DNA from: an uncultured Pelagibacteraceae bacterium
GTDB taxonomy: Bacteria; Pseudomonadota; Alphaproteobacteria; Pelagibacterales; Pelagibacteraceae
Length of the DNA: 64,000 bases
Assembly: GCA_902598825.1 (NCBI GenBank)
Contig: CACKDD010000004.1
Location: 1-64,000 of the forward strand
Direction: 5' to 3'
Positions 27,574 through 44,984 of the stretch are shown piece by piece. The notes under the pieces are model-generated. The model did not search any database and was not told the DNA's origin. It worked only from the letters and a program-made list of their open reading frames with translations. The position numbers and the translations under genes were made by a program. Within the stretch, counting starts at the first letter, position 1; the number at the start of each line of letters is the position of its first letter.

Positions 27574-28494
27574 CTATGCAATTGATCTTAATAAACTTTT
27601 ATTAATGATATTGTGTGGAAGATTTCTTTCTTGAATTTCAATGATTGAAAAATTTTCTTTGTTTTGGAATACCTTTTTTAATAATTGATTGGTTAAATAA
27701 TGACCACCCTGAGAGCAATTTATACTAGCTACAATTCTATACCCACTAGTGTAAAGATCACCAATACAATCAAGTATTTTATGATTAACAAATTCTTTAG
27801 AATTTCTAAGTTTTTCTTTGTTTAATATTTCAGTATCTTTTACTACTACTGCATTATCTAGGCTTCCACCTTTTGCCAGTCCATTTTTTTTAATTTTTTC
27901 TATATCTTCATATAAACAAAAAGTTCTAGAGTTGAAAATGTCATTTAAATCATCCTCATAAACATTAACTTTGTTTTTTTGATTTCCTATTACAGCATTA
28001 TCATATTTTAATTGAAAATTAATATCTAAACTTAATTTAGAAGGTTCGATGGATATTGATCTTTCACCCTCATTGAATGATATTTTTTTTTTAATTTTTA
28101 TAATCTTAATTGGGACTTCACTTTGTTTTAATCCGCTCTTAACTAACTTTTCAATAAATTCTTTTGCTGATCCATCTAAAATAGGAACTTCTTCATTATC
28201 AATTTCAATTAAAGCATTGTCTATTCCTAATCCAAATAATGCACCCATCAAATGTTCTATCGTAGAAACTTTAACACCAAAATCATTAGATATTGTGGTA
28301 TTGAGTGAGGTGTTGGTAACATTTGCAAAACTCGGAAATATTAAATTGTTATTTTTTAAATCAACTCTTTTAAATATTATTCCAGTGTTAGGTTCTGAAG
28401 GATTTATAGAAATATTAACAATTTGGCCATTATGAAGACCTATTCCCGTAAATTTTACAGGATTGTTAATTGTTTTTTGGTTTAATAAAGTCAC
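27574..28494 (-). CDS. lpxC: UDP-3-O-acyl-N-acetylglucosamine deacetylase
   Basis: QKTINNPVKFTGIGLHNG, STIEHLMGALFGLGIDNA, HKILDCIGDLYTSGY. Confidence 0.96.
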   Translation of the reverse strand: MTLLNQKTINNPVKFTGIGLHNGQIVNISINPSEPNTGIIFKRVDLKNNNLIFPSFANVTNTSLNTTISNDFGVKVSTIEHLMGALFGLGIDNALIEIDNEEVPILDGSAKEFIEKLVKSGLKQSEVPIKIIKIKKKISFNEGERSISIEPSKLSLDINFQLKYDNAVIGNQKNKVNVYEDDLNDIFNSRTFCLYEDIEKIKKNGLAKGGSLDNAVVVKDTEILNKEKLRNSKEFVNHKILDCIGDLYTSGYRIVASINCSQGGHYLTNQLLKKVFQNKENFSIIEIQERNLPHNIINKSLLRSIA

Positions 28495-28557: not shown

Positions 28558-29262
28558 TTAACTAAAAAGGTCAAAAAATTTTTCGAAAAAACCCTTTCTT
28601 TTAAGGGTTTTATTGACCAAGGATATCTCATTATTATTATAGCCTGAAACTATTCTGCTTGCAGTTGTATAAATATTTGGATTTTGTTGATCTTGGAACT
28701 GTTTAATATACTCAGCATTTAATATTTGATTTACTATAATGTGATATTTTTTAAGTATTGACTCATAATGTTCGGTTAAATTTTTGGATAAACATATAAA
28801 TTTAATGTCTAAAGAAAAATTATTACACTTTAAATTTTCAGGTAAAAAAGAATAATCTTTACCATCAATTTGATAATTTTCTATTAACATGTGAATGATT
28901 TTTTTATCCTTAAAACTAAATTGACACAAATTTTTTAAAACATTTAATGGATTGATTAAGTTTTCTTGAGATATAGAATTACCATTATGCCCTTTTTTAA
29001 TTGAAATTTCGATTGGAAAAAATTCTCTGTCATCTAAAATTATGTATGCATCTTTAACAAAATTTTTTAAATTTTTTTCTATTTTTAAGATATTTTGTGC
29101 AAGAAATTCATCTAATATTTTCAATTTAGAATCTTTATTATGATCATCAAATAATTTTTCTTCCTTAAAAAAAACTTCAAATGTTTTTTTTTTAATAATG
29201 CAAATAACTAATTTTTTTTTGTTTATAAATAAATAGGTTTCAAATTTAAGTTCCTCACTCAT
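28558..29262 (-). CDS. Shortened, divergent FtsA-like protein (1C-domain-like region plus C-terminal amphipathic helix)
   Basis: FtsA position between ftsQ and lpxC; IENYQIDGKDYSFLPENLKCNNFSLDIKFICLSKN..HYESILKKYHIIVNQILNAEY resembles the FtsA 1C region; C-terminus KRKGFFEKFFDLFS; no actin-fold phosphate 2 motif. Confidence 0.6.
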   Translation of the reverse strand: MSEELKFETYLFINKKKLVICIIKKKTFEVFFKEEKLFDDHNKDSKLKILDEFLAQNILKIEKNLKNFVKDAYIILDDREFFPIEISIKKGHNGNSISQENLINPLNVLKNLCQFSFKDKKIIHMLIENYQIDGKDYSFLPENLKCNNFSLDIKFICLSKNLTEHYESILKKYHIIVNQILNAEYIKQFQDQQNPNIYTTASRIVSGYNNNEISLVNKTLKRKGFFEKFFDLFS

Positions 29263-29923
29263 AAGTAATTACCTGATTTCGAGGTCGAGCATCAATAGAT
29301 TTAATATTATCAAATTGTTTGTAATCTAATAAATTTAAAGATAATTCTAAAGACTTTTCTATATTTTCAATTGGTAATTTAATTAAGACACCTGAGGACG
29401 TTTCTATATCCCATCTACCTGAAGGAAAAAAAAATAGATTTTCAACATCATTGTAATCTAACTTTGAACTATCAATCATTTTTTTTAAAGATAAGAATTT
29501 TTCAATATTTGGATCTCCAAAAATATATGGTAAATTTTTTACCACATCTTCTACCTCAATTAATTTTCCGTTTGATCCAATATAAAAAATTTTTCCTCTT
29601 CTATTTAAAAGTGCTAATACCTCAGTTTCAATTATCTTGATTTCTAAAGATGATGGATATCTTTTAAAAATTACATACTCCTCAATTAAGTTATTTGAAT
29701 TTAATAATTCTCTAACTTTCAATTTATCAAGATAAAACAATGTCTCCATTTTAAATAAATCTAAACTTTTTTGAAATTCTTTATCTTTTATTTCTAACCC
29801 TTCAATTTTGATTCTTTCAATATTTGGAAATTTCAATTGAGCTAAATTCTTATTATTCAATGATCCAAAAATTATAAATAAAAAAAAATATACTAAAATT
29901 TTTTTACTTACTTGTTGAGGCAT
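29255..29923 (-). CDS. ftsQ: Cell division protein FtsQ
   Basis: N-terminal TM, POTRA-like IERIKIEGLEI, IFKRYPSSLEIKIIET. Confidence 0.85.
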   Translation of the reverse strand: MPQQVSKKILVYFFLFIIFGSLNNKNLAQLKFPNIERIKIEGLEIKDKEFQKSLDLFKMETLFYLDKLKVRELLNSNNLIEEYVIFKRYPSSLEIKIIETEVLALLNRRGKIFYIGSNGKLIEVEDVVKNLPYIFGDPNIEKFLSLKKMIDSSKLDYNDVENLFFFPSGRWDIETSSGVLIKLPIENIEKSLELSLNLLDYKQFDNIKSIDARPRNQVITYE

Positions 29924-30818
29924 CTTTTAAAATTAATCTTATGAGCTTAATAAAACTTATACCATGATATGCAGCTATTTCAGGAACTAAAGATAGACTA
30001 GTCATTCCTGGCTGAGTATTTATTTCAAGAAGATAAAATCTACCTTTGTAAAATTTAAAATCAGAGCGAGTTACACCTCTACATCCCATTAATTTGTGAG
30101 CTTTAAGAGCTAAGTACATAAGTTTATTAAAATCTTTTTTACTTAATTCTACTGGAATAATATGTTTTGTTTTTGCTTTTGAGTTATATTTAGCCTGATA
30201 ATCATAAAACTTTCTTTTTGGTTGTAATTCAATTGCTCCTAGTTTTTTACTGCCAATTATAGCTGCTTGAATTTCACGTCCTGGAATAAATTGCTCTATC
30301 ATTATTTTTTTATAATCTTTTAATAATTTAATTTTTTTAAAAACATCGTTTTTTGAACAAATAAATACATTTACACTAGATCCCTCATTAATTGGCTTAA
30401 TTACTACAGGAAATTTTAATCTTTGATTAATCAATTTAATTAAATCTTTATTAGATTTATCAAAACAATATGAAAAATATTTAGGGGTTAATATTTTATT
30501 TTTAATAAATATCTTTTTGGATAATACCTTGTCCATAGCTAAAGATGATGAAATTATACCTGAGTGTGTGTATGGAATCCCTGTAGTTTCTAAAATAGTT
30601 TGAATATATCCATCTTCACCAAACTGACCATGCAAAGCATTAAAAATAATATTTGGCTTAAATAATTTAATTATATCAAATAATTGATAATCTGGTTCTG
30701 AAATTTTAACATTATAACCATTTTTAGTTAGCTCTTTTGCAACCTGCTTACCAGTATCGAGACTTATTATTCTTTCTTTAGATATTCCACCAGAGATTAC
30801 TAATATTCTTTTTTTCAA
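29904..30818 (-). CDS. ddl: D-alanine-D-alanine ligase
   Basis: NALHGQFGEDGYIQTILE, ATP-grasp EINTQPGMTSLSLVPEIA. Confidence 0.95.
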   Translation of the reverse strand: MKKRILVISGGISKERIISLDTGKQVAKELTKNGYNVKISEPDYQLFDIIKLFKPNIIFNALHGQFGEDGYIQTILETTGIPYTHSGIISSSLAMDKVLSKKIFIKNKILTPKYFSYCFDKSNKDLIKLINQRLKFPVVIKPINEGSSVNVFICSKNDVFKKIKLLKDYKKIMIEQFIPGREIQAAIIGSKKLGAIELQPKRKFYDYQAKYNSKAKTKHIIPVELSKKDFNKLMYLALKAHKLMGCRGVTRSDFKFYKGRFYLLEINTQPGMTSLSLVPEIAAYHGISFIKLIRLILKDASTSK

Positions 30819-43526: not shown

Positions 43527-44984
43527 TTAATTTTTTTGTCTTCTTAAAAATGCTGGAATCTCAAGATCATCATCTTCTTGATCTTCTTCGGATGATCCCA
43601 ATAAATCATCTGAATTTTTTGCTTCAATATCTGAATTAAATAAATCTGGCTCATCTATATCAACACCAAATTCTTTTAAATCTCCTGAAACTTCTTCTTT
43701 CTCTGATGATCTTATTGCTTCTTCTGAAAAAGAAACTTCATTCTCCTTAGATGTGTCCTCAACTATGCTTTCAACCTCTTGATTTTTGAGTAATTCTTCA
43801 TGATACTGATTGTTAACTTCATCTATAGTTTCATTTTGATTTTCAGAGACAACCTCATTTTCCAGTTTCAAAGCATTAGCTCCATGTGTAGCTATATTTG
43901 AAGCCGTATTAGAAAAAGAAAATGATGCTGTGTGATTATTTGAACCAAAATCAGAATATCCAGTATTACGATTTTGTATTCTATGCACCATATTAACAAC
44001 TGACTTAGACTCAGGTTGTTGATTGTCTAATGATGTGGCAACTATTGAAACTCTTATTTTGCCTGCAAGAGCTTCATCAGTTATTGCACCTATAATAACT
44101 TCTGCATCAGCTTCAACTTCTGATCTAATTTTATTAACTACTTCATCAACTTCAAAAAGTTTAAGATCTTTTCCGCCAGTAATATTAACTAATAAACCTT
44201 TTGCTCCTTTAAGCGTATAGTCATCTATTAAAGGATTACTAATTGCCATTTCTGTAGCTTGCATAGCTCTACCTTCGCCTTCGGCTTCACCTGTACCCAT
44301 CATAGCTTTACCCATTGATGCCATAACAGTTTCAACATCAGCAAAATCTAGATTAATTATTCCAGGTCTAACCATTAAGTCAGTTACACTTTGTACTCCA
44401 TGCATCAAAACATTATTTGAAAGATTAAATGACTCCTCAAATGTAGTTTGTTCATTTGCTATTTTAAACAAATTTTGATTTGGTATTACAATTATTGTAT
44501 CTACATGTTTTCTTAATTCCTCAAGACCAATTTGGGCCCTTCTCATTCTTGAAGGCCCTTCGTATAAGAAAGGAAGTGTTACTACACCTACAGTGAGTAT
44601 ATTTAATTCTTTTGCTGCTCTAGCTATAACATGTGCTGCACCAGTTCCTGTTCCACCACCCATTCCTGCAGCAATGAAAACCATATTTGCGCCTTGCAAA
44701 ATATTTACAATTTCATTTAAAGATTCATCAGCTGCAGCCTGTCCAATATCAAGCTTAGCGCCTGCACCTAATCCTTTCGTCAAATTTAAACCAATTTGAA
44801 TTTTCGATTTTGCTTTACTATGTTTTAAATCTTGAGCATCAGTATTTACAGCTATAAATTCAACTCCCTGCATTCCGTTATCAATCATCTCATTAATTGC
44901 GTTCCCTCCTGCACCTCCAATTCCCATTACTAGAAGTCTTGGTTGCAACTCTTTTATCTCTGGTGCTCTTAAGTTAATTGTCAT
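43527..44984 (-). CDS. ftsZ: Cell division GTPase FtsZ
   Basis: GIGGAGGNAINEMI, GGGTGTGAA tubulin signature; C-terminal peptide DLEIPAFLRRQKN. Confidence 0.98.
   Translation of the reverse strand: MTINLRAPEIKELQPRLLVMGIGGAGGNAINEMIDNGMQGVEFIAVNTDAQDLKHSKAKSKIQIGLNLTKGLGAGAKLDIGQAAADESLNEIVNILQGANMVFIAAGMGGGTGTGAAHVIARAAKELNILTVGVVTLPFLYEGPSRMRRAQIGLEELRKHVDTIIVIPNQNLFKIANEQTTFEESFNLSNNVLMHGVQSVTDLMVRPGIINLDFADVETVMASMGKAMMGTGEAEGEGRAMQATEMAISNPLIDDYTLKGAKGLLVNITGGKDLKLFEVDEVVNKIRSEVEADAEVIIGAITDEALAGKIRVSIVATSLDNQQPESKSVVNMVHRIQNRNTGYSDFGSNNHTASFSFSNTASNIATHGANALKLENEVVSENQNETIDEVNNQYHEELLKNQEVESIVEDTSKENEVSFSEEAIRSSEKEEVSGDLKEFGVDIDEPDLFNSDIEAKNSDDLLGSSEEDQEDDDLEIPAFLRRQKN

Follow-up and report, generated by a model that had tools for sequence, protein, structure and literature searches.

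The window, i.e. the whole 64,000-nucleotide stretch of DNA from an uncultured Pelagibacteraceae bacterium that was analysed, carries on its minus strand a short ftsA gene and its neighbours, with ftsZ at the opposite end of the dcw cluster:

27574..28494, minus strand, lpxC (identified with Pfam/NCBIfam)
28558..29262, minus strand, short ('half') ftsA, 234 aa, ATG start
29255..29923, minus strand, ftsQ, 222 aa (identified with Pfam/NCBIfam)
29904..30818, minus strand, ddl, D-Ala-D-Ala ligase (identified with Pfam/NCBIfam)
43527..44984, minus strand, ftsZ, 485 aa, within the same window
43530..43562, minus strand, FtsZ C-terminal peptide EIPAFLRRQKN

The start of the short ftsA overlaps the end of ftsQ by 8 bp and the spacer to the downstream lpxC is 63 bp, in agreement with the approximately 60 bp given in a preliminary description of this DNA, which had also placed the open reading frame (ORF) at the ftsA position of a ddl-ftsQ-X-lpxC array; the Pfam/NCBIfam identities of ddl, ftsQ and lpxC support this placement. 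The gene occupies the dcw operon position after ftsQ that belongs to FtsA, and at the loci examined the ftsQ-X-lpxC slot is identical for short and full-length forms. At one locus (L123, genome G165) ftsZ is present and neither ddl, ftsQ nor lpxC was detected in the 19.3 kb examined, unlike the other long loci, a layout that may reflect either a rearranged dcw cluster or a misassembly.

Taken as a single sequence, the 234-residue product gives weak, collinear Pfam/NCBIfam matches to SHS2_FTSA (E 0.022) and TIGR01174 (E 0.0049), the latter pairing residues 114–184 with profile positions 111–181 and scoring 16 bits, under the curated NCBIfam cut-off of 175.85 bits, which most full-length SAR11 FtsA likewise do not reach; phmmer of the single sequence against the PDB gave no match. 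The resemblance of the middle of the ORF to FtsA that had been noticed initially, weak for one sequence, is strong for the family. SHS2_FTSA is matched by 16 of 28 short homologues (best E 1.7e-6), and hhalign comparison of these 28 with 21 full-length SAR11 FtsA yielded Prob 99.8 and E 2e-29 over residues 1–216, of which approximately 1–190 form the trustworthy portion. The profile of the 28 short homologues finds E. coli FtsA (7Q6D, E 1e-3) in a PDB set, and with a profile of 66 members ORFs of 396–452 aa, the canonical FtsA length, are recovered from other Alphaproteobacteria at E down to 1e-10, so that common descent with FtsA is established by sequence profile.

Structure prediction, which had been suggested as a check, was consistent with this assignment in that similarity to both 1A and SHS2/1C of FtsA was seen in the AlphaFold (AF2) model (pLDDT 86.9, pTM 0.81). 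The best 19 matches of a Foldseek search of the PDB are all FtsA (E 4e-12 to 3e-8, with TM by query reaching 0.66), among them 4A2A, a solved FtsA complex with an FtsZ peptide, and are followed by PilM and GspL (E 2e-7 and worse). The place of the latter two just below FtsA is what could be invoked for a PilM/GspL-type protein having replaced ftsA in the operon, but every FtsA structure outranks them, the sequence-profile matches are to FtsA, and both the C-terminal helix and the 1A-1C sequence agree with those of the full-length SAR11 FtsA that occupy the same slot. The model lies no closer to PilM/GspL than to FtsA, and the sequence link to the full-length relatives refutes this identity, leaving it a negligible probability. 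The 234-aa ORF is an FtsA homologue, the ftsA of this SAR11 lineage.

Alignment and model together give the following anatomy:

29035..29262, minus strand, N-terminal part of subdomain 1A, residues 1–76 (three strands, helix 43–65, strand 71–76)
28747..29034, minus strand, subdomain 1C (SHS2), residues 77–172 (strand-helix-strand-strand-helix)
28693..28746, minus strand, return into subdomain 1A, residues 173–190 (strand 176–182, short helix 183–187)
28675..28698, minus strand, approximate site of the missing domain II, residues 189–196, by comparison with full-length SAR11 FtsA
28645..28674, minus strand, last helix of subdomain 1A, residues 197–206, aligned by eye with EDICQSGFQFG of the full-length forms
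28600..28644, minus strand, conserved linker, residues 207–221 (G207, N209, N211, E212, K218)
28561..28599, minus strand, putative membrane-targeting C-terminal amphipathic helix GFFEKFFDLF, residues 222–234

In the model a beta-beta-beta-alpha-beta portion of 1A is followed by 1C (82–171), the strand 176–182 and short helix of 1A, a helix at 197–205 and the C-terminal helix at 225–232; the last 15–20 residues are modelled with low confidence, the pLDDT of the C-terminal helix being about 47–49. The N-terminal 190 residues correspond by alignment to 1A and 1C of the 369-aa form (L132/L135), with 1C (SHS2) inserted in 1A as in FtsA. The C-terminus, KRKGFFEKFFDLFS, aligns with the helix KQGFFEKLFHFF of full-length relatives, in keeping with the FtsA-like amphipathic helix recognized at the outset, membrane binding itself being a prediction. 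When the end of the short form L104, ICQIGYNLNRGLNKQEVLIVPKKIEKSGFFEKLFHFF, is set against that of the full-length L132, ICQSGFQFGMGINKQEVVLIPKKQIKQGFFEKLFHFF, the last 1A helix, the linker and the membrane helix correspond; for the last 1A helix the correspondence was set by eye, the MAFFT joint alignment having misplaced it.

Between these conserved ends, domain II (2A and 2B), about 135 aa in full-length SAR11 FtsA, is missing, and the spacing from Y185 to E212 across the junction is 26–29 residues in all short forms. By the canonical definitions of the ATPase motifs, phosphate 1 is decayed (YLFINKKK against IIDCGSSK) and the phosphate-2 and adenosine motifs are absent. Thus, the protein has neither the actin ATPase motifs of FtsA nor domain II with its FtsZ-binding 2B. 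The preliminary description had phosphate 2 and everything after it absent: this stands for phosphate 2, the adenosine motif and 2A/2B, and fails for the last 1A helix, which is kept. Its broader view, that a 1C-like region and the anchor are retained while the ATPase half and 2B are lost, agrees with the domain anatomy, from which the functional consequences would follow. As judged from the alignments, the short protein consists of domain I and the anchor, domain II having been lost from within the chain.

The ftsA locus was searched in 197 Pelagibacterales genomes. The genus of the window contains 67 intact ORFs of 220–245 aa and 31 of 368–401 aa, with no intermediate sizes; 11 more matches, truncated at contig ends or interrupted by frame breaks, lie outside these counts. 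Some shorter ORFs are contig-end artefacts and were set aside rather than taken as short forms (L118–L121, L124, L128, L129, L131; G348). At the loci examined in other genera and in a second family, the forms are 393–411 aa long. The short form is found in the named single-cell genomes AG-390-M02 and AG-325-J17, and also in several Candidatus Pelagibacter ubique assemblies; genome G013 (1,456,888 bp) has it, and G011 (1,308,759 bp), of a sister lineage, has the full-length form. The comparison with other SAR11 clades that had been recommended has found the short form to be widespread and under selection.

The short ftsA is under purifying selection: omega is 0.14–0.36 for close pairs, in the range of ftsQ and higher than lpxC. 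The most conserved region is the C-terminal helix, with the linker second (G207, N209, N211, E212 and K218 at 95–100%), and F53, E62, K63, H124, Y185, G207, E212, G224, F226, E227, F229, F230 and F233 are invariant in 66 homologues. At two loci, L117 (in G026, a single-contig genome) and L130 (G152), the short ftsA has a frame break within an A-tract close to the N-terminal helix; these breaks may be sequencing errors. A decaying relic, a pseudogene on its way out, could be seen in those two loci and in the poor conservation outside the helix. Against it are the 67 intact ORFs in a narrow size range, the omega values, the residues invariant across 66 homologues and the uniform junction spacing of 26–29 residues, besides the possible origin of the two breaks in sequencing, so that such a relic is very unlikely. 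The intact ORFs, the invariant residues and omega likewise rule out a chance ORF.

A complete ftsA elsewhere in the genome, the other check proposed initially, was sought by profile. Eight short-form genomes 97–100% complete (G003, G005, G013, G017, G020, G026, G036, G048) gave no second FtsA. Besides the short gene, where it scored above threshold, the FtsA-profile matches in these genomes are only ORFs of 345–366 aa and of approximately 650 aa, the former MreB-sized (MreB was identified by sequence in the genome of the window), the latter DnaK-sized as judged by length and matched position. The window's own genome gave only MreB and a marginal 34-residue match to the FtsA profile, and, as it is 73% complete, the argument from absence rests on its finished relatives, in which a full FtsA elsewhere is ruled out at this level of search. 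The conservation of the FtsZ tail, described below, would be accounted for if FtsA were split, with domain II made as a separate protein and assembling with the short one, but in finished short-form genomes profile positions 169–355 match only the same MreB-sized (345–366 aa) and approximately 650-aa ORFs. Since all matches are MreB- or DnaK-sized, neither a full FtsA nor a separately encoded domain II is present at the sensitivity of the profile search, and the split gene was rejected at that sensitivity as highly improbable.

The best reading of the gene is one from which domain II (2A and 2B) would have been excised in frame. A tree of six neighbour genes distributes the short forms over several groups with full-length groups in between and rejects a single clade of short forms (p-AU 6.5e-5). 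The tree of the N-terminal part of ftsA joins the short forms (SH-aLRT 90), the alternative in which they stand apart not being rejected (p 0.34). Recombination in either direction would reconcile the two trees; one excision followed by later recombination and several excisions, each limited by having to leave domain I closed, are both possible histories.

Erosion of the ATPase is seen beyond the short forms. Already in the full-length FtsA of the order, phosphate 2 has no GGGT (it reads IDIGFNKTS or similarly), and in genera g5 and g6, which belong to the same family, the proteins of 396–400 aa in the ftsA slot (L159–L165) no longer have the phosphate-1 Asp, the adenosine GG or phosphate 2, with no excision. 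The latter are apparent pseudo-ATPase FtsA whose domain II is not shortened. The motifs having been lost by excision in the short forms and without it in g5 and g6, it may be inferred that nucleotide use was lost in two ways in this order.

The FtsZ peptide site on FtsA lies in subdomain 2B. The prediction that the FtsZ tail would have changed where 2B was lost was not borne out, EIPAFLRRQKN being the same throughout the genus in genomes with short and with full-length FtsA. The search for other tethers covered ZipA and SepF and found neither, SepF giving only three sub-threshold scraps. Of 13 genomes, 12 have ZapA; it was not found in the 73%-complete genome of the window. The conserved C-terminal peptide of FtsZ is bound by FtsA and in other bacteria has further known ligands and roles (PMC5832921). 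In FtsA filaments the longitudinal contacts are IIA-IIB and the lateral ones IC, and in E. coli and Vibrio FtsA the IA-IC cleft binds the FtsN tail (PMC7613929). The SPOR profile did not detect FtsN in the finished SAR11 genomes searched, in which the only SPOR-domain matches are L252–L259; those inspected are RlpA-like lipoproteins and were rejected as FtsN. FtsQ (29255–29923) is short, with approximately 8 residues before its membrane segment, and so offers little cytoplasmic tail to FtsA.

The explanation that we favour, and consider probable, is that excision of domain II has left a membrane-bound, ATP-independent domain-I adaptor that recruits divisome partners. The protein would consist of 1A, its nucleotide site not usable, together with 1C and the C-terminal amphipathic helix. 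This helix is predicted to anchor the protein to the inner membrane where the cell divides, and a divisome membrane protein would have its cytoplasmic tail bound in the 1A-1C cleft. The longitudinal 2A-2B contacts found in FtsA filaments could not form and the canonical 2B pocket would not be available to the FtsZ tail; the IA-IC cleft would be kept, as would the lateral surface of IC, and it is from this balance of surfaces kept and lost that a membrane-held 1A-1C adaptor is proposed. The computed results are that the protein descends from FtsA, lacks domain II, is conserved and is under purifying selection, and that no second FtsA was found in finished genomes. Membrane binding, partner binding and the loss of ATPase activity and canonical FtsZ binding are deduced from domain anatomy. 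One point against certainty on the adaptor is that the SPOR profile did not detect FtsN, which is known to bind in the 1A-1C cleft.

With the 2B pocket lost, either a new contact on the short FtsA or some other protein would have to hold FtsZ. The unchanged FtsZ tail and the failure to find ZipA or SepF leave room for the first, a sub-case of the adaptor that differs in who holds FtsZ: the short FtsA would still be the membrane tether of the Z-ring, with the peptide on a new surface, e.g. the G-x-N-x-N-E-V linker or 1A/1C. The 95–100% conservation of five linker positions would fit, but the linker motif is partly older than the excision (NKQEVVLIPKK in full-length relatives), and the other ligands and roles of the FtsZ tail (PMC5832921) may also account for its constancy. 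We regard this tether as a serious possibility, at somewhat less than even odds.

If the adaptor is correct, the essential core of FtsA would be domain I plus anchor, and a new way of attaching FtsZ to the membrane is implied, the finding pointing to a new FtsZ tether or a new FtsZ contact. The purpose of the ATPase and polymerization of FtsA is a long-standing question, and SAR11 is among the most abundant cell groups on Earth. On balance, with only a slight preference, we take much of the SAR11 genus to divide with an FtsZ ring whose FtsA lacks the nucleotide cycle, the actin-type filament and the canonical FtsZ contact; a step considered central to bacterial division may then be dispensable in SAR11. 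A natural FtsA without domain II, with full-length sister lineages, makes the functions of domain I directly testable.

With canonical FtsA (E. coli 7Q6D, V. maritimus 7Q6F/7Q6I, T. maritima 1E4F/4A2A) the short form shares the operon slot, the 1A and 1C fold and the C-terminal amphipathic helix; it differs in size (about 234 against about 400 aa), in the lack of domain II (2A, 2B) and of the phosphate-2 and adenosine motifs, and in its decayed phosphate 1. The full-length SAR11 clade of L132, L133, L135 and L136 (368–369 aa), at the same locus in the same genus, is about 30% identical to the window protein in the 1A-1C part and nearly identical in the membrane helix, but keeps domain II and the phosphate-1 Asp, its phosphate 2 being without GGGT. 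PilM and the cytoplasmic domain of GspL, of type IV pili and type II secretion, share an actin-like fold, and PilM, which also has a 1C-type domain, binds the N-terminal tail of PilN in its IA-IC cleft (PMC7613929). They are not cell-division proteins, and their structural match to the short FtsA is weaker than that of FtsA. A search confined to the open-access literature found no report of FtsA truncation in SAR11 or of a natural FtsA without domain II. Going by the title of work by Corbin in 2004, cited in PMC7613929, a subdomain of FtsA can reportedly interact with proteins of late septation in the absence of the Z ring. Laboratory FtsA 1C constructs are engineered fragments in E. coli, whereas the short SAR11 FtsA is natural and long established.
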